Shown here: positions 1-42,086 of the stretch, in pieces
Numbering within the stretch: position 1 is the first letter of the stretch
Layout: each line of letters starts with the position of its first letter
DNA from: Heliocidaris erythrogramma
Lineage: Eukaryota; Echinodermata; Echinoidea; Camarodonta; Echinometridae
Assembly (NCBI GenBank): GCA_025617745.1
Contig: CM046869.1
Span: forward strand, 3,992,244-4,056,243
Reading direction: 5' to 3'
DNA: 64,000 nucleotides
The notes under the pieces: generated by a model
What the model was told of the DNA's origin: nothing
Databases searched by the model: none
What the model saw: the letters and a program-made list of their open reading frames with translations, nothing else
Translations under genes and position numbers: made by a program

Positions 1-3000
1 AATTCATTAACTGCTGCTCTTGCAGTAATTTCTGCAGTTTGTAAAGGAAGAGGGATACATTCTACCCATTTGGTAAATTGATCTACAATAACCAAAATGT
101 ATGAATTACCCTGTTTTGTCTTAGGTAGAGGTCCTAGAAAATCTAAATGTACCTTTTCCATTGGCACCCCTGCGTGATAGATTACCATAGGGTAACGCCC
201 CTTCCGTCCTGGCTTTTTATTGAGGTTACATATTGCACACCTAGCAACATAAGCTCGGACATCTAAGGTCATACCATACCAATAATACTTCACTTTAAGT
301 TTGGCCAATGTCCGGTCCACCCCAGCATGACCAGCTAAAGGTACATCATGATTTAGATGAAAAATGGATTCTTGCAAATCCTGGGGCACCACTATTCTAT
401 CAGTTGGTTCTCCCTTCTTCCACAAAATTCCATCCTTCAAATAAAAGTTATCCCTACCTATCCATAGGGCCTTTTCACTTGGACCCCATAACATAATTGT
501 CCCTTCATCGGGTATGGTTTGGTCCATTAACCATTGCCTTAAATGAAGTAAACGAGGATCACTGGTCTGTGCCTCCAAGAACTTAGAATACAAGTCAATA
601 TCAGAAGAATTTACAGAGATTTGATTAACTTGATTTTCCCTCTCTACAAAAAATTGTGGGTCACTTTCCCTTTCAACCAGAATCTGTGGTTCATTTTCTC
701 CTAACAAAACATCCATGTGAGTGACACACATGTCAGAGGATTTGTCCTCACTAACAGGGTTTTGTTTGCTTAAAGGAACTATATTATCAATCATATGTGC
801 AAAAACAGACCAATTCTTGTTGGCACGTTCACAGTAATTGCAGCCTCCACATGGAAGGTCTGATGGAACAACACCCAACATATAATTTTCACAAAAAGCA
901 TCTTTATGATCCGGTCTACGAGAAAGTGCATCTGCATTGACATGTTTCCTACCTGGTCTATGTTCAATGATTAAGTCATATTGACTAAGCACTTCGAGCC
1001 AGCGCGCTAATTGACCATGTGGTTCCCGGAAATTCAGCAACCACCTTAAACTATCATGGTCAGTTCTAACCTTGAAAGGTTTCCCCAAAAGAAAATGACG
1101 ATATTGCTGTACGAATTTTACTACAGCTAATAATTCTTTGCGTGTTACGCAATACCTTCGTTGCTCAGGAGATAAACTTAGGCTACCATAAGCAACAACA
1201 CGTTCGAAACCACCTTGGACCTGAACAAGTTCAGCTCCAATAGCGGAATGAGAGGCATCTGTATCTAGAATAAAAGAATCATAAGTATTTGGTAAAGCTA
1301 AAACGGGAGCTGTAGTCAAAGCTTGCTTGATTCGTTCAAACGCTAACTCATGCTGCTGCTCCCAAACAAAAGAACGCTTTTTGCTTGTAAGTGTGTATAA
1401 TGGATCAGCTAATTCAGCGCAATTCTTCAAGAAGAGCCTATGATAATTAACTAACCCAAGGAACTGTTGTACCTCCTGGGTACTAGTGGGTGTTGGCCAA
1501 TCTAATATTGCACTAATATGTTGTGGTTTTAAGTGTAAGCCTTCGGAGTCAACTTCGCGACCTAGAAATTCAACGCGTTGTTGAAATAAACTACATTTCT
1601 TTGCCTTGAGTTTGAGGCCATACTTCTGAAACCGACTCAAGACTAACTTAAGATTATCTAAATGATTCTCAAAAGAACGGCCCAATACAATTACATCATC
1701 TAAAAAAGCTAAAGATATGTCCCAATTTAAACCGCTCAATATCAAATTCATAACCCTAGAGAAAGTAGCAGGGGCATTACAAAGTCCAAAACCCATTCTA
1801 ACGAATTGAAATAAACCATACTTTGTGATAAAAGCAGTTTTTTCCCTGTCTTTTGCACTAACATGGACTTGCCAATAGGCGGCATTGGCGTCAAGTTTAG
1901 AAAACCACTGATTACCTCCTAAGGTATCTAGACATTCCTCTATGCTGGGTAGAGGATAGACATCCTTCTTGGTTACATCATTAAGTTTTCTATAATCTAT
2001 GCACCATCTTACACCGCCATCGCGTTTTCTAACTAAAACAGGAGGTGCAGCCCACTCCGAAGCGGATGGTTCGATGACTCCCGCATCTAACATCTTTTGC
2101 AAGTGCTTTTTCTCTTCTTCTGCAAAATTCATTGGGGTGCGCCGCATCTTAAGTTTAATTGGGGTGGCGTCCGCTGTGTCAATGCGGTGTTCCAACAAAT
2201 TAAAATTACCCAAATCAAATTCATGTTGAGCAAAAACTTCACTAAATTCGCACAACAAATTTAATAATTTTTGCTGTTGGGACTTGTCTAAATGAATGCA
2301 AGATTCTTCCCATAGATCTTGTAAATGAGGGGGAACTGCTAATTCATCCATTGTCACGGCCCTCACATCTTTCTCGTTATGTTCTCCCAGTTCAGAAACT
2401 AAATAAGCTTCTCCTACATTCATATTCCCTTTTAAAGAAACTAGGGTGTCAGTGGGATTCAAAACAAATATATCAAAACTAGATTTCCCAGAATGTAGAG
2501 TACGGGGAACCAAAACAGGAAAACTAGGGTCCGGTTCAATTAATGTTAGCCCCTCAATCTCCGCGTTCAGAATGCATCGCACTCGAGCAGCTGACCAAGG
2601 AGGCACTAAAGTGGTCCCATACAGCTGTACAGGATAGCGCCGATGATCACGCTCGTGTCCGAGATTCATCTGGATACGATCCCCGAAAACAACTATTTCA
2701 GCATCCGGAATATCGATAAGGAACCCATACTTATGCATAATGTCCATACCTATAAATAACATATCGTGAACGATAGGGGCAACAATGACTGTGTCATGGA
2801 AAACATGTGGTCCAATATGTAATTCTACAGGGCCTACAACATTCCCATCCATCTTCATATCCCTACCTGCAGCATTCAGAGTTATTGATCGAATGACAGG
2901 AGGTGGGGTGTTCAGCTTTGCTATAAACCTATCGGAAACTATTGTTACTTCCGCGGCTGTATCAACAGTTGCATGAATCGACTTGCCATTAACTAAAATT

Positions 3001-3272
3001 GGTACAGAGAAACTAGAGGAAGAAATAAGTTGACAAATTATCACTTCATCCGTCTTTTCTACCTTGGCCCCTAATTCCAATCCCTCTTCAATATTAGGGC
3101 TTGAACTAGTTGCTTCCGGGAAAATAGACTCGCCCTCTAATTCTCGTTTCACAACTTCTAGTTTTGGCTCTACATGTACTCCTGAAATTGAACTATCTAT
3201 TTCTATGGAGTTTCGGCCTCCTTCTGTTCGGGTTGAAGTTCGGCCATTGTCTCCAACCCTGTCAAGTTTGGG
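1..3272 (-). CDS. pol: gypsy pol polyprotein, partial (protease, RT, RNase H, integrase N-terminal half)
   Basis: One frame stays open on the minus strand from 3272, just after an in-frame stop at 3273-3275, to the window edge. In order it shows a retropepsin (DTAAEVTIV near 2960), an RT with the metal-binding motif FLDDVIV near 1700, RNase H (LDTDASHSAIGAE near 1260), an integrase zinc finger with HDVPLAGH and CAIC (about 225-345), and the first catalytic Asp in HLDFLGPL near 140. The second Asp and the Glu lie beyond the edge. This frame is reached from the gag frame by a -1 shift, and the two overlap over 3203-3272, the usual gypsy arrangement. I saw no textbook slippery heptamer in that overlap. 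Long intact coding suggests a fairly recent copy, in contrast to its gag. Confidence 0.88.
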
Positions 3273-8084: not shown

Positions 8085-10721
8085 TCATCCATATTCATAA
8101 ACGTCCACGTATCGTGCAGGCCACCTAACATGACGCCCGGAGCGAGTCTTGCGAGGTTCTGGGTCGGTAACCACGGGAGTAGGCGTTGGTTGTGATGAAG
8201 AAAGCCCTGTGGGTGGAGGTGGAGATGAAACTACACGAACTGGCGTTTGATCCGTCACAGCTGTAGGGATTACACCATCACTTTCCATAAAAGCTGGTTT
8301 AAGACGATCCACACTAATATTTTCATGTTTACCATCAACATCAATGGAAAAGAACTTATCAGTGCGCTTAAGTACTGGAAAAGGTCCTTTGTACGGTGGC
8401 TGTAGTGGTTTCCTAACAGCGTCTTGCCGAATAAACACGTGACTCGTTGTATACAAATCAGAGTTCACATGGGAGGTAGATTGTTGTTTGCGAGTAGGGG
8501 TGGGGTGGACTTGCTGCATTAACCGCTTAAGTCTATGCACGTAGTTGGCTGGATCGATGTCGGTTTCAGGCTTCGCTGGTAAAACAAATTGTGCAGGTAA
8601 TTTCATGCTTGTTCCATAAACCAACTCAGCTGCCGTACATCCAATGTCCGTCTTAATTGCATTGCGTATTCCTAACAATACAAGAGGTAAGACTTCAGTC
8701 CAACGTGAATCATTGTGCGTCTTGATTGCGGCTTTCAATTGTCTATGCAGACGTTCTACGAGTCCGTTCGATGCGGGATGATACGATGTCGTCCGAATCC
8801 GTGTCGTTCCGAGTAAATCGGTGAGAGAACGAAAAAGATGAGATTCAAACTGACGTCCTCTGTCGGTCGTGATCGTTGACGGGGTTCCGAATCGAGCGAT
8901 CCAATGATTGATAAAAGTACGTGCCACTGTATTGGCTGATATATCGCTCATGGGGATTACTTCAGGCCACCGTGTAAAACGATCTATGCATGTGAGAAGA
9001 TAAGTGTATCCTTCTGATGAGGGGAGTGGACCGACAATATCAATATGCACATGATCAAACCTCGCATCGGGTGTAGAAAAAGTTCCAAGAGGTGCTTTGT
9101 TGTGACGATGAACTTTACAACGTTGGCATTGCAAACATGTTCGTGTCCATGATCGCACATCTCGATTTATGCCTTTCCAAACAAAACGCTCAGTGCACAG
9201 TTTTTGCGTAGCTCGAATTCCAGGGTGTGAAAGATTGTGAAGTGCATTGAAAATCGATTTGCGAAATGACACAGGAACGTATGGACGTGGAGTACCCGTT
9301 GACATATCACACAAAATTGTTCCGTCTGAAAATGGAATTGGTATTCGTTGTATGTCGAGTGAATTGTCATCGGTGAAGTTTGCGATCTCGTCATCGTCCT
9401 CTTGAGAACGAGCAATGGCGTCGAAATCGATGGAGGCGTTGTGTTCCAGACTGTCTATGTATACACGAGAGAGAGTGTCTGCAGGAATATTGTCCTTTCC
9501 GCTCACATGACGGATGTCAGACGTAAATTGTGAAACGAAATCTAAGTGTCGTATCTCTCGCGGTGAATGGCGGTCTTGTTTAGACTTCAAGGCGTACGTC
9601 AAGGGCTTGTGATCGGTGAAAATGGTAAAATGTCTACCTTCGAGAAGATGACGAAAATGTTTAACACCGAGGTAGGCAGCTAACAGTTCTCTACCAAAAG
9701 TGCTGTATTTCATTTCAGCAGGCTGAAGTCGCTTAGAGAAGAATGCGAGTGGTTGCCATGAGTCATTAACGAGTTGCTGGACTACTCCGCCGACACCGAC
9801 ATCAGAAGCGTCGACAAATAGACACAAAGGAGCGTCTGGTTGTTGGTGTGCCAAAATAGTTGCATGAGCCAGTTCTTCCTTAGCACGATTGAAAGCAGAA
9901 ATTTCCGTTTGATCCAGAGAAAGAGTCTGATTCTTCTTATTTCTGTCTTTCAGCATGTCTGTTAGTGGCTGGAGAACATCAGCGCAGTGAGGAATGAAGC
10001 GCCTATAAAAGTTCACTAGGCCGAGGAATTCCCTCAATTTGCGTAACGAAATCGGAGTGGGGAGTTCACGAATGTACTTCACTTTCTCGTCCAGGGGTTG
10101 AATTCCATGCTCATCCATGATGTGACCCAGGAAAGTGAGTGAAGTGGCTCCAAAAACACACTTGGCAGGATTGATGACGATTCCGTACTTGCGAAATCTC
10201 TCAAAGAGTAGACGGAGGTGTATTTCATGTTCGTCCTCGTTATCACTGGCGATGAGCACGTCATCAATGTATACGAACACAAAAGGAAGTCCTCTTACAA
10301 CATCGTCCATCAATCTCTGAAAAGTCTGTGCAGCATTGCGTAGTCCGAATGGCATGCGAACAAACTCGAATAATCCAAACGGAGTGGTGATTGCGGTCTT
10401 TGGAATGTCAACTGGTTCTACTGGAATCTGATGATATGCACGAATGAGATCCACCTTCGAGAAAACTTTCTTTCCATAAAGCGATGACGAGAAATCTTGA
10501 AGATGAGGAATTGGGTATCGATCAGGTACTGTTCGATCGTTTAGTGCACGATAATCACCACATGGTCTCCAGTCCCCAGGTGTTTTCTTTGGTACCATGT
10601 GTAATGGAGATGAACAATTACTGTCCGATTGCCGTATAATCCCGAGATCAAGCATGTGGTCGAATTCGGCCTTGGCTATCTTCAATTTGTCTTGCGATAG
10701 TCGGCGGGGTCGGGAATGCAC
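8085..10721 (-). CDS. pol: gypsy RT-RNase H-integrase polyprotein, 878 aa
   Basis: An intact ORF begins inside the RT N-terminus ([15 protein letters not shown]), so the listed Met is not the natural start; protease lies in another frame upstream. The RT catalytic Asp in [12 protein letters not shown] is near residue 91 and YIDD is near 151-154. RNase H follows at about 300-400 (LFVDASD, TDHKPL). The integrase has an HHCC finger ([17 protein letters not shown] near 495-535), a DDE core ([22 protein letters not shown], about 560-680) and a GPF module (YKGPFPVL, near 785). All catalytic residues expected for the family are present. The protein would copy the element's RNA into DNA and insert it. 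The stop is 155 bp before the 3' LTR. Confidence 0.95.
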
Positions 10722-14993: not shown

Positions 14994-16273
14994 TGGAATA
15001 CACTCATCTCACATCGATAAACATATATGAATAATGATGAGTTCACCAGTGATGATACTCGCTTGGGCTAACGCCCTCGCCCATTGTCCGTACCGTCTCC
15101 ATAACGGGATTAGTTTACGTAACGCGATTAGTATAAATGTAGATCTACCTCCCAAGAAAGCCAGACGCATATCGTAGGCTAGCATGAAAAAAAATCACAG
15201 GTCATAAAATCATTAACTGAGTCAATGACATTGAGAGACTCTTGGGAGCCATTGCCTGGCAGCTTGTTTATATCACTGTGGTTATTTATAGATAGTATGC
15301 GCGCTCGCGAGCGGGTAGATCAAACAATCCTATGCAATTTGTAAAAAGTACAGAGAGAGAAAGAGAGAGAGGGGGGGGGTGGGGGGAGTAAGTGTGTGTT
15401 GTATCGACGGATTGATGGAGCGAGAAAAGGGGTAAAAATGAGCTAGGAAAGAGGGGATCATGCAAAAGCAACGAGAGGAATATCGTTAAAATGAGTTGAG
15501 TTAATTCATTTACTTTTGGGGGAATTCGTCGATGGCCGGTGCCTCTTGCAATTTTAAGGGTGCGTTCAAGCAATTCTTGAAGCTAGAATCACAATATGAA
15601 TCACGATACAAAACGCTATTTTAAACCTCTATCGTGTTTCCCTGTGTTTGTTTTTATCAAGAATAATCGTTTTCTTACGGCTGTTTTTAATCTGTCAGCT
15701 TTTCATTCACCTTTTCCGATGTTTCTCTTTTGAAATTGTCATTTCCTTCTTCTATCTATCACATTGACACCATTACATTTTTTTCTCTCTCCTCTCCTCG
15801 TTTCTATTCCGCTCACACAGTGTTTGCCCTCTTCTCTTAATGCTCTCTTTTTCCTCCTGTCTCAATCCTAATTGTGCCGCTCCTATTTCATATTCCGGAC
15901 TATGAACCACCTTTTTTTCCAAATTGAACCTTCAGAAAAGCCACAAGTAACCAGTCGCATATATACGACGAAAAATATCTTGGCAAAAAGAAATGATTAT
16001 CGTGACCATGGTGAATGCTAAAGAAATAAATCCTGTTGGTCACTTTTGATCCCTTTTCACTTTTTTCGTTATTTTATCTGGTGATCTCCTCTTTCACCTC
16101 ACGGTCGCCGCTCTATTCTGGCGCCCTTCGCTTACATTGTTTTATTATAAATAGACGGGTTGTCACCATAAATAAAATATACACATGAAAAAAAGTTATA
16201 TACATCGTCATGAATGGATATATAACTTCACTGATTCTCATCAGTGAAGTTGGGCAATAAAATAGGTTCGGTG

Positions 16274-16835
16274 TAAAAATGCCAGAGGTAAAAATGCCAG
16301 AGGTAAAAATGCCAGTGGTAAAAATGCCAGAGGTAAAAATGCCAGAGGTAAAAATGCCAGTGGTAAAAATGCCAGAGGTAAAAATGCCAGAGGTAAAAAT
16401 GCCAGAGGTAAAAATGCCAGTGGTAAAAATGCCAGAGGTAAAAATGCCAGTGGTAAAAATGCCAGAGGTAAAAATGCCAGTGGCAAAAATGCCAGAGGAA
16501 AAAATGCCAGAGGTAAAAATGCCAGTGGTAAAAATGCCAGAGGTAAAAATGCCAGTGGTAAAAATGCCAGAGGTAAAAATGCCAGTGGTAAAAATGCCAG
16601 AGGTAAAAATGCCAGAGGTAAAAATGCCAGTGGTAAAAATGCCAGAGGTAAAAATGCCAGTGGTAAAAATGCCAGAGGTAAAAATGCCAGTGGTAAAAAT
16701 GCCAGAGGAAAAAATGCCAGAGGTAAAAATGCCAGTGGTAAAAATGCCAGAGGTAAAAATGCCAGTGGTAAAAATGCCAGAGGAAAAAATGCCAGAGGTA
16801 AAAATGCCAGAGGTAAAAATGCTAGTGGTAAATGT
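16274..16835. repeat. 15-bp minisatellite, left foldback arm
   Basis: About 37 units of TAAAAATGCCAGAGG with a common AGAGG/AGTGG alternation. Because 15 is a multiple of three, both strands show long spurious frames (MPEVK repeats; LAFLP repeats). Confidence 0.95.
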
Positions 16836-18790: not shown

Positions 18791-19129
18791 CACATTAGGG
18801 TGATGTCATTTTTGCATATCTCCTTTCCCTTCTCTAAACCTAAAATTCAGTTGCAAACTTCCTTCTCGTTCCAAATTCTATTCGGGATAATGAAATCGCA
18901 CGTCGATTAAAAAAAGCCGGGTCTAGGATCTGGAGTCCAGAGTCCAACAGAAAAACGCGGTCAAACCAAATAGTTTAAAAAGTAAAATACAAGCAGATGT
19001 CAGGTCTGCTTTATATTCTTTATATTTCACCTCTTGATTTTTCACCTATTATTCTCCTAGTATGCAGCTGGCATATTTTGTCTCTTTACTTTTTGTTCCT
19101 GACATCACCCATCGCGTGTTTATCTCTGC

Positions 19130-19393
19130 CATTTTACCTCCGGCATTTTTATCTCTGGCATTTTTTGCTCTGGCATTTTTTGCTCTGGCATTTTTTCCTC
19201 TGGCATTTTTTCCTCTGGCATTTTTACCTCTGGCAATTTTACCTCTGGCATTTTTACCTCTGGCATTTTTTCCTCTGGCATTTTTTCCTCTGGCATTTTT
19301 TCCTCTGGCATTTTTACCTCTGGCAATTTTACCTCTGGCATTTTTTCCTCTGGCATTTTTACCTCTGGCATTTTTACCTCTGGCATTTTTACC
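19130..19393. repeat. 15-bp minisatellite, right foldback arm (inverted)
   Basis: About 17 units of CCTCTGGCATTTTTA, the inverse of the left array. The two arms differ roughly two-fold in unit number. Confidence 0.95.
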
Positions 19394-21252
19394 TGGCACC
19401 ATAAAATACATACATACATTAAACTTCCGCAATAATTCTTGCGATCCATACAGTTCCTTAAAAACAATAATTGCCGTCTTAATATCGGAAGAAATATAAA
19501 GCGCATTTGGTGCGCAAAACTGATTATCATTTGTTAATACTATCAATCATATCGTGCATTTTCCATGTATTGATCATTCTCATCAGCGAATTTATTTAAG
19601 GGCAACAAAAATATACATCGACCGTCATTTATTCATGTGTCTATACTGTAGTAATAATATTATTTCTTTGGGCGACCGTAAATCTGTATCATTAGCCAGT
19701 GCAATTTAATTTCATCTGACGATTATTACTTTATTTCATATGATGAGCTTCAATTTCTTTCACCATTAAACTTCTGCATAATTCTTGCGATCCATACATT
19801 TCATGAAAAAAAAAATCAGCTATTTTTTGCGTCTTTATATCGGAAGAAATAATGCGAATTTGCCGGGGGCAAAACTCAATAATCATCGGCAGTCCTTCGT
19901 TTAATCTGGCAATCGTATTCTTTTTTTCATCCAACGGTCGACGTTGTATTTTATCTGGCGACCGTCGCTTAATAATAATAATAATAATATTCAGTTCTTG
20001 TATAGCGCATAACACATTGAGAGAGGTTGGAATTGGGTCTAGGTCACAAGAAGTAGAGTTGGATTGTAAAATTACCCGACGTACTTCCTGAGCAGTAACT
20101 GGTCTAAAGCTTTGAAACAACGAGCCACATGTTTTTTCATCCGTACAAAAAATCATTGGCACCAGGGTCTGTTGATGCCAGTTGGCGTGTGATATTTTCT
20201 GTTTTTTCTTTGAAGTATTGAGCAAAGGATTCAGCTTACATTCATAAATAAAGCAAATTCACTATAGTATATGGCATCACCATGAATCTTCCAAAATAAT
20301 TCTTCCGATCCTTACAGTCAAAGAAAGGGAAATACTTCGAAACGAGATTATACATTTATCATGCCGGCATGATTGATATCGCAATAAATGAAGCACCTTC
20401 GATTGCGCTGCGAGTTTCTGACAAAACACACCCTTTGAACCATCAACATAATACAAACACGTTGCCTTTCTCTCTGGGCATTGTTGACAGTTTTACAGGT
20501 CAACAAACTTTATCAACTGAACTCCCTTTTCACCCTTTCCCAACCGCCCTGCTCCGATCATATATATCTCGACTGGGTGCGCACGCAAAATCATCGGCGT
20601 TGCTTTTTAATTGGACCAATGCAAGTGGACCAAGCTGCCAGCGGTCACCAAAGTTTGCCGAACTTTCATTTATGTTAATTTCAACATCTCACTCCTGATT
20701 GGTCACTAGGTTTCACAACTTGAGCTTGTTACAGGAGCTGTGTGCACGGCGTAGAACAGCAATCTTGACTGCGTTTGTGAATGCAGTGTGTGGATAATGC
20801 AAGCATATTTTGGACCCTGCCACATGCACATGCTATGCATAATGCAACGGTACGGCAGGTCAAAACAAGGAGTTATCACAGACCTGTGATAACTCTAGAT
20901 CCTTGGTCAAAATAGCTGTGGATTTAAGCAAGACACGTACGCGTATGCGCTCGTGGCGTTCGGACCGTAACTGTTTACGGTTTGCAATATTTATGATGAT
21001 AAAAGGCGCGATTAATGACCTTTCACAACCGGTCTCTGTAACCGAGTTGACCCAACTCTTGCCTCAGTCCGGATCGGAATGCTTTGTCCGCCGGACCAAA
21101 GACCAGAAAACGGTCCGAGCTACAGCACTAACTAGAAGAATGAAAGGTACAACTACAAGAGAAGCCTGCTTCCAGTGGCATGCGCAGCGATGGTGAAAAG
21201 CACCAAATATGATACCCATCTAGTACAATATGAAAGAATGGTATAGTATAGC

Positions 21253-22106: not shown

Positions 22107-22248
22107 CTGGGGAGCGTTTCATCAAGCACTTTGTCAGTGATATTTACTGACAAATTTGCTCTCAGCCAATCAGATGCAAGGATTTCAGTAGCTTATAACA
22201 GTTGTTGGTAAAAATCACTGACAAAATGCTTGATGAAACGCTCCCCAG
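22107..22248. mobile_element. CTGGGGAGCG MITE, copy 1
   Basis: 142 bp with inverted ends CTGGGGAGCGTTTCATCAAG, a further inner inverted motif around TTTGTCAGTGA, and a 4-bp duplication AGAT at 22103-22106 and 22249-22252. Other copies are near 28.2-28.7 kb and at 41945-42086. Confidence 0.85.
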
Positions 22249-22309
22249 AGATGTGTATTTACATGTAAGGTACCATATACATATATTTTCTTTTTCTTTG
22301 CAATTACAG

Positions 22310-25300: not shown

Positions 25301-28300
25301 TGTAGGTCTAGCTGATACGTTTTTACCTTTTTAAGATGTAAACATTTTCCAATCAATCAGCCGAACATTTGTTGCACAGGGCCTGCTGGCAAGAGTGTCG
25401 ATGCTATCGCTAGATGGCTAGAGCACTTCCACGCTGTAGCCGTCCTGGTAGCGTGAGTAATGGCCTGCGTTACTAACACACACAATACTGTAAACGCTGT
25501 TATTTTCGCGTGATTAAATTTTCTCGCTGAGCTACCCCAAAACATATTCGCGGGTTCTTGATTTTGTGCTGCACAATTACTCACTCGCAAAAATGCGACT
25601 CCATTTATTGTTTCACACACACGCGGTCCATTCAAATGCATGCTACAGGCTACAGACACAACTACACACACGCACTCTAAAATGAATTGGATTCAAACCT
25701 GTATTATTCAGATGAAGCGCGCAATGCAGCTTATGCTTGTAAAAAAAGCATAAGAAATCGTGCTAATATTTTTGCGTCTTCTAGACTTTGCGCCCGCTGA
25801 AAATAGCGCGAAATCCGCAAAAATTAATGTAACGCGAATATTTCTGCAATTACAGTACTTGTCTTCTGTAAAAGTTCTGCTCTTTACAGGTAGATTTTGG
25901 CATTTTAACCCTTACATTTCACTTTGTATATAAATAGCTGATATCATCCGATGTTCCTCAATGTTCCTCGATGTTCCTCTTGCCTTGCCCCTCACTTGTC
26001 TTCAAAATAAAGACATATAAACAAAGAAACAAACCAGAAATGCCCAGAGATTCAGACTTTCCCCATAGACATTACACATACAAACGCACAGCACGCTGCG
26101 AAGCTTGCCTGAGTCTCGTTGTGCACGGCGCGTGCAGGGGATTTGCATCTGATTAGCATAACATTTAGCAAACATGCCTATTGTTCAAGTTTCTTTCAAA
26201 AATACTATCACACTGAGATTGCTTACTGAACAGCCTTACTAGGCATTTGCATGCTAGGCATTTGTGTTAACCTTCAAGTTTATATATTGCAACTTAGGTA
26301 ACGGTAGAGAATTTCATCCGGGTGCTGACCGGCCGCCTGCCTCCCAGCACCCCGCGGTCAAAGCGGCTCCTGACGGATGATCGCAGCAATGTGCTAGTGT
26401 ACATGACGGGACATGGCGGAGACGGCTTCCTCAAGTTTCAAGATGCGGAGGAGATCAGCAGCATCGAGCTGGCGGATGCCTTCCAACAGATGTGGAAGAA
26501 GAGGAGGTAAGTGTTGTCCAGCTTCTCGGCAGGGATTTGTTTACTGATGATTTGAAATGAGTGAAATAAGGCCTTGGAGCAGTAAAGGGAAGTGGTTTGG
26601 GAGGACTGAATCAATTTTGCATTTTGAAAGTATGCACTGACATTTTTATACCAGTTATATGTATTTATGACTGGGTCTTTAACTGAAGTAATTAACAATT
26701 ATTTGATTTTTTAAAATTTTGAATGAAGGGGAGGTAGGTAGGTTTGACAGAACAATCCATATATTTTTATAAAGCGTTTGGCCTCTGTTACCAAAAACTG
26801 TAGACTCTGCATGTGATTTGATTATTCTTTATTTTCCATTTTTTTTTTGGAATAGATACCATGAGCTCTTGTTCATTGTGGATACATGCCAAGCTGTTTC
26901 ACTCTACAAATATTTCTACTCTCCAAACATCATAGGGATTGGAAGTAGTCAAGTTGGAGAAGATTCCCTATCGGTGAGTACAAAGAGCAGTCAAATATAA
27001 TATCCATGTGCAGTGTTTCATGAGTAGCTGGATAGCTTTCCTTTTAATATTGAGAGTTTATGATTAAAAATATTTCTATCATGTGTTTGTAAATTGTATA
27101 TATTGGTAGGGACAATTACAAACATATTTCTAATAATGTTTCCAGTCCACAGGTACCAGAAAATACATATTTTTTTTTAGAAAACAGCGATTTGTTGAAT
27201 TTCTTGAACAAACCAAAAAGAGAGCTTCTGGCATATTGTAAATAGATCAAATATATGCAAATTTCAAGTAACATGACAGAGGGATGAAATTTCCCTTTAA
27301 TGTTTTGTATATGGATGAAAGTGTCCTCGCTGAGATTTAAACCTGGACAGTTCAATCCATAACAAGTGACTAATCCATGAGACTTCTAAATTTTACAGCC
27401 TTGTTCACGTGTGCCTCAGGAAATCTGGGTGAAATAAGCTTTTCGCATTTCTGTAGATCTTGTAACACTCAGATAAGCGAGTATGCGGAGTACCTTTGTT
27501 GCATGCAGCTACATATTTTGTTGCCATTTATTTGCACGTAAAAAGCGGTTTACCATGTCGTGTGTGAACGAGCCTTTAACTGTGGTAAACCAATATGCCA
27601 TATCATGAATTCATACATATCTTTCTTTGATTTCTTGTAGCATCACCATGACTCGGCTATAGGAGTGTATATCATTGATAGATACACATACTACGTTCTA
27701 GACTTCTTGGAGAGGATGACACCTTCAAGCCAGAAAACAATGGATGAATTTGTAAGAGTTCTCTTTTTTAACTGAATTCAAATAAAATGGAGTGCTAGAA
27801 ATCAAATCAATTTAAAAAAAAATTATATTTGTGATTTTTATGATTTGTCTTGATTTTTATCAATAAAAACTGGAAAAAAAAAATAAATTGTTCCTTTGAA
27901 AGCACCAAGTATCTCTGTATTTTTCTTCATGATGTAAAATCTTGTAATAGAGGCTCAACGATATGAATTAGATGCGACAAAAACACAAAAGGTCCAAGGG
28001 CAAATTAATTTTTTTAATTACAATCACCGTGAATAACTTTTTTTATCGAGGTGTAGCATTTGTGACAAGTTCGTTAAAATTGCTCACTAAAGCATCATCT
28101 TAATGATAATTGGAAACTTTGGAGAGAAGTCGTTCCACAAAGACTGATAGGACTGGTATGTTGCAATTTGTGGTTTCACTTGCTTTTGTCATGTTTATCT
28201 GGGGAGCGTTTCATCAAGCGTTTGTCAGTGATTTTTACTGACAAATTTGTGCTCAGCCAATCAGATGCAAGGATTTCAGTAGCTTATAACAGTTGTCAGA

Positions 28301-31300
28301 AACAATCACTGACAAAACGCTTGAAGAAACGCTCCCCTGGTTTTCTATGTCACAGTTTAAAGTGTGTCCACAACGAGTCTGTAAGTCCACTCCAGGGGTA
28401 AGAGCGTTTCATGAAGCGTTTGTCAGTGATTTTTACTGACAAATTTGTGCTCAGCCAATCAGATGCAAGGATTTCAGTAGCTTATAACAGTTGTCAGAAA
28501 CAATCACTGACAAAACGCTTGAAGAAACGCTCCCCTGGTTTTCTATGTCACAGTTTAAAGTGTGTCCACAACGAGTCTGTAAGTCCACTCCCTCGTTATC
28601 TGGGGAGCGTTTCATCAAGCGTTTGTCAGTGATTTTTACTGACAAATTTGTGCTCAGCCAATCAGATGCAAGGATTTCAGTAGCTTATAACAGTTGTCAG
28701 AAACAATCACTGACAAAACGCTTGAAGAAACGCTCCCCTGGTTTTCTATGTCACAGTTTAAAGTGTGTCCACAACGAGTCTGTAAGTCCACTCCAGGGGT
28801 GAGAGCTGACCTCTTCCAAAGGAACCCCAAGAAAACCCTCGTCACAGATTTCTTTGGCAGTGTGCGCAATGTGGAAATCTCATCTGCAGAGGTTGACTTC
28901 TCTAGTGATGGCACAGATGATGATGTTTCCTCCAGCAGTCTGGGTGATAGGGGAAAGGCCACTGGAGCAGTTTTGAATTATGTCTCTCAGTTCCCAGATG
29001 ATTCCTTATTAAAAGCATCAGAAAGAGTAAGCATTTAATGTTACTAATTTTATCAGAGTAAAACGCCAGAGCTTTGTGTCATTTGTAGGAAAAATGCTCA
29101 GGAAAGATATTCCATCATGAAATGATCAGCAAGCAGTGATACTGATATTTTCATGTTCATTTGTTCTATATTTTTGATATTGTAGATTGATCAATAAATT
29201 TCTTTTCATGTAAGGGAGACCATCCAAATTCATCGACCATTCCAGAATGTATCCGGAATGGGGTCATCAAGCATTCCAGAATGGGTCGGGAATATCCCCA
29301 TTCTAGTCGCATTCTCAAATTTCCGGCCGATCCGGCGCCTTTTGTTTTCCGAAAAAAGGGGCATTCTGAAAGCATTCTGGGAGCATTCTGAAATGTCCCT
29401 TTGTCGTCGACATGGCATGGGGTCATTCTGGAATGGTCCCAGAATGCGGTGATTAAAAATCATGAACGGGACAGCCAAGGATGCGCAGCGCGATCGAAGG
29501 TACTTCATTTATTGCGATATCGATCATGCCGGCATGATACATGTATAATCTCGTTTCAAAGTATTTCCCTTTCTTTGACTGTAAGGATCGGAAGAATTAT
29601 TTTTGAAGATTCATGTTGATGCCATATACTATAGTGAATTCGCTTTATTTATGAATATTGTAAGCGACGGTCACCAGATAAGATACAGCGTCGACCGTTA
29701 GATGAAAAAAAGAAAACGATTTCCAGATTGAACGAAGTGATGATCGCCGGGTGAAAAAATGCGCATTATTTCTTCCGATATTAGGACGCAACAAATAGCT
29801 GATTTTTGTTTTTAATGACATGTATGGATCGCAAGAATTATGCGGAAGTTTAATGGTGAAAGAAATTGAAGCTCATCATATGAAATAAAGTAATGATCGT
29901 CAGATGAAATTAAATTACACTCGCTAGATGATACAGATCTGCACGATTGCCCAAAGAAATAATATTACTACAGTATAAACAGATGCAATAAATGACGGCC
30001 GATGTATATTTTTGTTGCCCTTAAATAAATTCACTGATGAGAATGATCAGTACATGAAAAATGCACGATATGATTGATAATATTAACAAAATGATAATCA
30101 GTTTTGCGCACCAAATGCGCTTTATATTTCTTCCGATATTAAGACGGCAATGATTTTTTAAGGAACTGTATGGATCGCAAGAATTATTGCGGAAGTTTAA
30201 CGTATGTATATATTTTGTTGCCCTTAAATAGCTACAGTGATGAGAATCAGTGAAGTTATGTGTATATAACCTTTTTTCATGTTTATACTTTATTTATGGT
30301 GACAACCCGTCTATTTATAATAAAACAATGTAAGCGAAGGACGCCAGAATAGAGCGGCGACCGCGAGGTGAAAGAGGAGATCACCAGATAAAATAACGAA
30401 AAAAGTGAAAAGGATAAAAGTAACCAACAGGATTTATTCCTTTACAATTCACCATGGTCACGAAATTCATTTCTTTTTGCCAAGATATTTTTCGTCGTAT
30501 AGGCCTATGATATATGCAACTGGTTTTTCTGAAGGTTCATATTTGGAAAAAAAAGGTGGTTCATAGTCCGAAATATGAAATAGAGTTAATTCTTCCGAAG
30601 GTTCATACTTTTTCTGAATCTTTTATATTTTTAGCACACCACTTGAGCGGTACAAAAAAAACAGAGCATAAGATAAGAGGGCAAACACTGTGAGAGCGGA
30701 ATAGAAACATGGAGAGGAGAGAAATAAAATGGAATCGTGTCAACGTGACAGATAGAAAGAGAAGAAAATGACAAATTAAAGAGAAACATCGGAAAAGTTG
30801 AATGAAAAGCTTACAGAATAAAAACAGCCATAAGAAAAAGGTGATTATTCTTGATAAAAACAAAGAATAACACAAGGAAACACGATAGAGTTTTTAGCAC
30901 CCTTAAAATTGCAAGAGGCATCGGCTATCGACAAATTCCAAAAAAGTAAATGAATTAACTCAACTCATTTTAACGATATTTCTCTCCTTGCTTTTGCATG
31001 ATCCCCTCTTTCTTAGCTCATTTTACCCTTTTTCTAGCTCCATCAATCCGTCAATACAACACAGACTTTATGTAACTCCCCCCCCCCCCCCCCTCTGTAC
31101 TTTTTACAAATTATTTCGGGGAAAGGCTTGTTTGATCTACCCCCGCGCGCGCATACTATTTATAAATAACCGCAGTGATATCAACAACCTGCCAGACAAT
31201 GGCTCCCAAGAGTCTCTCAATGTCATTGACCCAGTTAATGATTTATGACCTGCTGTGATTTTTTTTTTTATGCTAGCCTATGCGATATGCACCGGGCTTT

Positions 31301-40734: not shown

Positions 40735-41235
40735 ATTTCTATGCTTTAGTGCCATATGCATTTCCAGATCAGTTGCTCGGTACTTCTTTATACACGGGTT
40801 ACATGAAAACATATTTTAGTCTAAGTCATACTGGTATCATAGGGTTGATACGATCTTGCACACGTTTAGTCACCTTAGTTGATCCTTTAAAGCTTCTAGT
40901 AATTTTGGTCTGATGCTCTAGTGCCATATGTATGTCCAGATCATTTGCTCGGTACTTCTCTACACAGGTTACATGGAAGCATATATTAGTCTAAGTGATA
41001 CTGATATCATCGGGTCGATATGACCTTGCACTTTTTTAGTCACCTTAGTTGATCCTTTAGAGCTTGTAGTCATTTCGGTCTGATGCTCTAGTGCCATATG
41101 TATGTCCAGATCATTTGCTCGGTACTTCTCTACACAGGTTACATGGAAGCATATATTAGTCTAAGTAATACTGATATCATCGGGGCGATATGATCTTGCA
41201 CTCATTGAGTCATCTTAGTTGATCCTTTAAATGGG
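40735..41235 (+). repeat. tandem repeat, about 170-bp unit, three copies
   Basis: GCCATATGTATGTCCAGATC-type starts at 40752, 40923 and 41093. Each unit ends with AGTCACCTTAGTTGATCCTTTA. The plus-strand frame 40578-40913 overlaps the first unit and is not considered a gene. Confidence 0.9.
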
Positions 41236-41944: not shown

Positions 41945-42086
41945 CCGGGGAGCGTTTCATCAAGTGTTTTGTCAGTGATTTTCATTGACAAATTTGCTCT
42001 CAGCCAATCAGAAGCAAGGATTTCAGTAGGTTATAACAGTTGTCTGTAATAATCACCGACAAAATGCTTGATGAAATGCTCCCCTG
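41945..42086. mobile_element. CTGGGGAGCG MITE, another copy
   Basis: Ends CCGGGGAGCGTTTCATCAAG and its inverse, with a 4-bp duplication GTAT at 41941-41944 and 42087-42090. Confidence 0.85.

Follow-up and report, generated by a model that had tools for sequence, protein, structure and literature searches.

A tandem triplication of a MITE together with the adjoining splice acceptor and exon start in the PIGK gene of Heliocidaris erythrogramma

The DNA analysed here, the window, is a stretch of 64,000 nucleotides from Heliocidaris erythrogramma (contig CM046869.1, positions 3,992,244 to 4,056,243). Seven exons of one gene were placed in it between 22310 and 29026, each with an AG on its 5' side and a GT on its 3' side. 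Joined, they yield 330 residues free of stops which match the human GPI-anchor transamidase 7w72_K with E=5.8e-153, and the name PIGK given to the gene in the earlier note is confirmed. PIGK is essential in animals. In the alignment to 7w72_K the catalytic His and Cys motifs, GHGG and DTCQ, are retained. A search for a 5' exon of PIGK and for a 3' exon encoding its membrane anchor found neither. Because the 5' exon is missing from the placed set, the exon which had been termed exon 7 is indeed the seventh placed, but probably the eighth of the gene. A search of the 1.06-Gb, 26-contig assembly placed all seven protein matches (E <=0.001) within one PIGK gene. Likewise, the exon discussed below and its acceptor match the PIGK locus only, with one full copy and two partial copies.

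Further features of the window are of a different nature. Two arrays of a 15-bp repeat, at 16273-16832 (about 37 copies) and 19119-19394 (about 18), are in opposite orientation and about 2.3 kb apart; the former reads as an open MPEVK/MPVVK-like repeat. A 170-bp tandem repeat (40741-41231, 2.9 copies) is located about 0.7 kb from a MITE copy at 41948-42083. On the minus strand, 3-3152 and 8085-10721 contain long open frames whose translations by eye resemble retrotransposon polyproteins.

Ahead of the last placed exon, three units are arranged head-to-tail at 28195-28796 (TRF: period 198, score 1127). The features are listed below; a slash marks the exon end at a donor.

27641..27751, plus strand: PIGK exon upstream of the array, ending ...KTMDEF; donor TTT/GTAAGA at 27752
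28199..28201, plus strand: CTG target-site duplication on the left side of the MITE; its counterpart on the right, also CTG, at 28337-28339
28202..28336, plus strand: MITE copy 1, NuwaI-like, 135 bp, TIR GGGAGCGTTTC
28354..28355, plus strand: putative decoy acceptor AG of unit 1
28356..28397, plus strand: partial exon copy 1, 42 nt, phase 0, 14 codons
28398..28403, plus strand: GTAAGA, donor-like site behind copy 1, matrix score 4.27
28398..28405, plus strand: junction 1, where exon meets MITE, with either a substitution and an overlap of GAGC or a filler of AA; a C>G change is nearby at 28413
28402..28534, plus strand: MITE copy 2, lacking its initial GG at the junction
28552..28553, plus strand: putative decoy acceptor AG of unit 2
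28554..28591, plus strand: partial exon copy 2, 38 nt, containing TCT/GTAAGT at 28579
28592..28595, plus strand: junction 2, where CTCG precedes the left flank TTATCTG of MITE copy 3
28603..28737, plus strand: MITE copy 3, same sequence as copy 1
28755..28756, plus strand: genuine acceptor AG, preceding the complete exon
28757..29026, plus strand: the whole PIGK exon (270 nt), with a donor-like GTGAGA inside it at 28799 and its own donor AGA/GTAAGC at 29027

The units are spaced by 198 and 203. In each, 17 nt separate a MITE of 133-135 bp from the acceptor AG, which leads into the opening 38-42 nt of the following PIGK exon. Units 1 and 3 are identical (196/196 bases), and units 1 and 2 agree at 189/190 over their common part. 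The acceptor TCTATGTCACAG, ending at 28355, 28553 and 28756, is the same in all three. The TRF score and the length and identity of the repeat run are not a matter of chance: the triplication is real at the DNA level in this assembly. As sequence features, the essentials of the earlier note are thus borne out, i.e., three near-identical units of about 200 bp, each with a MITE, an acceptor and an exon start, two decoy acceptors, and a potential in-frame exon of exactly 14 codons which runs into GTAAGA.

The two junctions differ. For junction 1 there are two readings: exon sequence which carries a single G>A and overlaps the MITE by the four bases GAGC, or exon ...GGGGT followed by two filler bases, AA, and the GAGC of the MITE. 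At junction 2 the exon ends with ...CACTCC; then come CTCG and TTATCTGGGG of the left flank. A GAGC microhomology, initially suggested for both junctions, can fit the first but does not fit the second. Such irregular and differing joints fit end joining or template switching. The MITE foldback as RNA has a predicted energy of -64.6 kcal/mol, and a foldback of this strength could stall replication.

All three PIGK copies of the MITE have seven differences from a 25-copy MITE consensus in common, one of them a missing base. Several of the seven recur in some other copies, hence not all are specific to PIGK. Besides the two bases affected at its start, at the junction, the unit 2 MITE departs from the others at a single position, 28413 (C>G). 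The small changes at 28400 and 28413, if read as substitutions, are both close to junction 1. The seven common differences and the single internal change in unit 2 indicate that the triplication would be younger than the MITE insertion, unless gene conversion has levelled the units. Judged by inter-unit identity alone, the triplication appears recent. Two independent MITE insertions, one into the intron and one into the exon, with subsequent unequal exchange, were considered and are rejected for PIGK because the last MITE precedes the whole acceptor and exon.

What is this MITE? In PIGK it is flanked by two CTGs. We inspected 23 other copies, which stem from the 20 places that score highest once those of the window are set aside and are not a random sample. 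A CWG is on both sides in 21 of them (identical trinucleotide in 16, CTG opposite CAG in 5), and two are without CWG on one side; L010 and L011 share flanks, as do L023 and L025, hence these are not independent. Mismatched CTG/CAG flanks were seen in L009, L010, L018, L023 and L025 and likewise in a window copy at 22110-22245. This copy has the same orientation as those in the array, and its end is 64 bp ahead of another PIGK acceptor, at 22309. The first two columns are G in all 25 aligned copies, and the consensus TIR is GGGAGCG. The family is abundant: an exact 26-base core of the MITE occurs 11,136 times, 5,497 forward and 5,639 reverse.

The NuwaI group of PHIS (PIF/Harbinger-related) DNA transposons is characterized by CWG target-site duplications, TIRs which start with GGG, and inverted arms of 12-61 bp (PMC4482050). 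The PIGK MITE shares the CWG duplications and the GGG starts, and its inverted arms of at least 23 nt are within the range stated there. Unlike the NuwaI transposons the family is known here from the short, non-coding MITE alone. No host, echinoderm or other, which could be linked to this genome was noted in PMC4482050. With these NuwaI-type signatures the element may be termed NuwaI-like. As a potential source of a branch site the MITE was not informative. The only match to the branch-site motif YNYTRAY in the last 70 nt is supplied by the MITE, 43 nt from the AG, and another AG intervenes between it and the acceptor. The joined empty site is without any match, and among six other placed PIGK acceptors a match is found at two and none at four.

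Does the MITE take flanking DNA along elsewhere? Pattern searches of the genome for paired MITE ends yielded 122 strand matches at a distance of 45-75 nt, 52 at 76-106 nt and 52 at 14-44 nt; such exact patterns miss diverged MITE ends. The pairs examined are those at loci fetched from the 45-75 and 76-106 nt searches, for the 122-match set from among the first matches listed. They comprise 69 full-length adjacent MITE pairs with distinct spacers of 40-110 nt, the window's two included; 24 are direct and 45 inverted. Most of them resemble independent insertions, and their reading as duplicates was rejected. Spacer copies of at least 0.88 identity were present at five fetched loci only, PIGK in the window and L092, L093, L109 and L115; the next value was 0.68. 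When the criteria were relaxed (93 pairs, of which 38 direct and 55 inverted), L116 was flagged as well; it was dropped since its 25-nt spacer is itself MITE-like. The four other arrays have the same MITE with a flank of 43-50 bp, and 3 to 6 MITEs each:

L092, G000:C18:31867400-31870200, 821-1827: 183 bp x 5.5
L093, C9:13304700-13307200, 692-1577: 180 bp x 4.9
L109, C11:43102650-43103600, 300-797: 3 MITEs
L115, C16:27044650-27045600, 334-827: 3 MITEs

By eye, the start of the L115 spacer resembles the right flank of that array and its end is much like the left flank, i.e., the layout of PIGK junction 2. The array at L109 begins and ends with a MITE, and here two insertions followed by unequal exchange are a possible origin. 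Compared unit to unit, identities are 165/179 at L115, 170/186 at L109, 172/183 at L092, and 177/180 and 179/180 at L093; with 196/196 between units 1 and 3 the PIGK array is the most uniform among the pairs compared. Among the 14-44 nt matches, known from their listing, the same spacer was also seen twice close by at G000:C11:4434708-4434893 and at G000:C16:40043881-40044172, which may be further arrays. MITE-plus-flank tandem duplication recurs in this genome, and the loci are few relative to the size of the family. Given that the same MITE forms arrays at four further fetched loci, a recurrent process seems to be at work, of which the PIGK triplication would be one product.

The reading frames follow directly from the DNA; which splice sites would be used is a matter of prediction. 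Donors were scored with a donor matrix. The seven placed PIGK donors score 4.23, 3.89, -0.49, 7.5, 5.17, -1.5 (27752) and 1.56 (29027). The unit 1 donor, GGG/GTAAGA, at 4.27 outscores five of these seven, both neighbours included. It had been attributed to the junction with the next MITE, which is not clearly the case: at the same place the real exon has GGG/GTGAGA (28799) with a score of 4.73. A strong donor is already part of the ordinary exon and is therefore not new to the array. In addition, every unit has a TCT/GTAAGT 25 nt into the exon (28381, 28579, 28782). This site is weak (0.59) and its use would generate a 25-nt, frame-shifting exon. Thus, unit 2 has an acceptor, as reported earlier, yet it is not devoid of a donor, albeit a weak one at 28579. 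Since the unit 1 donor is above five of the seven placed donors and the three acceptors are identical, use of the decoys may be substantial. Eight alternative paths were modelled. The frame is kept only by inclusion of 28356-28397; in each of the other seven a stop follows after another 9 to 96 residues. When the array is folded as RNA in silico, 100 base pairs are predicted between MITE 1 and MITE 2, and MITE 3 folds back on itself. The former pairing would loop out exon copy 1 and favour its skipping; as a single minimum-energy fold this is weak evidence.

The 14 residues encoded by the 42-nt copy align with human residues 272-285 and span Cys275 and the 278-loop. The human PIGK variant C275R is listed as pathogenic. 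Routine inclusion of the 42-nt exon would probably be harmful and disturb the enzyme. Because the repeated Cys275/278-loop segment is a probable disturbance, the main transcript is expected to skip both decoys.

Taken together, we consider it likely that a MITE insertion was later followed by tandem triplication and that the upstream copies are decoys. The order of events and the mode of joining are inferred. A NuwaI-like MITE would have inserted just upstream of the PIGK acceptor, with 17 nt now between the MITE end and the AG. A segment extending from the left edge of the MITE to about 40-50 nt inside the exon would then have been duplicated in tandem, resulting in three units whose illegitimate joints involve microhomology, a little filler, or both. 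At the 3' end of the array the acceptor and exon would have stayed complete, and with these intact PIGK most likely still splices from 27751 to 28757. The 42-nt exon may be included to a minor extent, or frame-breaking use of a decoy may occur and be followed by decay. Most likely, the present effect of the duplication is silent or minor.

Three alternatives were weighed. It is unlikely that the 42-nt copy serves as a cassette microexon, with two forms of PIGK, one of them containing the 14-residue segment twice, and a newly gained intron of the tandem-duplication type. An exon of 42 nt is short for exon definition, the insert would repeat the Cys275/278-loop region, and the predicted pairing of MITE 1 with MITE 2, as weak evidence, would loop it out. 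These points stand against 14 exact codons in phase 0, a good donor, an acceptor identical to the real one, and a precedent in potato with 106 RNA-seq reads (PMC4974935). That the MITE family recurrently seeds flank-carrying duplications and, at the same time, PIGK now makes a translated, in-frame Cys275/278-loop microexon is a combination which we regard as quite improbable. We are even more doubtful about the decoys acting as a brake, i.e., that use of decoy acceptors results in stop-containing, degraded mRNA and lowers PIGK output in carriers of the allele. The stops in seven of the eight modelled paths and the identical acceptors agree with it, yet PIGK is single-copy here and a strong loss would presumably be selected against. 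Finally, near-identical short tandem copies are a recognised failure mode of assembly, but that one true unit was repeated by mis-assembly or by joined haplotypes is hardly credible in view of two junctions which are unlike one another and unlike the single-copy sequence, a base change specific to unit 2, and an assembly of 1.06 Gb in 26 contigs.

The favoured reading, an insertion followed by triplication, can be set beside known systems. The PIGK event is a MITE-associated tandem duplication across a splice acceptor and as such a variant of a known route of intron gain. A literature search, in which subscription titles were poorly covered, brought up no triplication of a MITE plus acceptor that we recognised. 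The closest precedent is the potato RdRp gene. There, a tandem duplication across an intron-exon boundary made a new intron which inherited acceptor, branch site and tract and used a latent exonic GTAAG as donor (PMC4974935). The PIGK duplication equally crosses an intron-exon boundary, with inherited acceptor and branch region and a latent exonic GTRAG donor. Unlike in potato, the PIGK unit contains a MITE, there are three units instead of two, and the new intron is a putative one, read from the sequence layout. The PIGK copies are also closer to each other, with 0 or 1 internal differences compared to ten between the potato RdRp copies.

Tandem arrays and satellites seeded by MITEs have been reviewed, and microhomology-mediated end joining was proposed as a route of duplication (PMC9659126). 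The PIGK MITE similarly resides in head-to-tail units; in contrast to the arrays reviewed, these units also carry host flank, namely a splice acceptor and coding exon. Introners are DNA-transposon-related elements which create an intron by inserting (PMC9860276). Here, too, such an element is possibly involved in making an intron. Yet, unlike an introner, the PIGK MITE lay in an intron that was already there, and a new one could arise only through the subsequent duplication. What looks new is a MITE family with MITE-plus-flank arrays elsewhere in the genome, and one event, in PIGK, which caught a splice site. As the PIGK copies are nearly identical, the first steps of such a process, i.e., which acceptor wins and whether a latent donor suffices, are directly testable. 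The arrays at other loci suggest that an abundant MITE may repeatedly supply such duplications, through which new splice sites could arise more generally.
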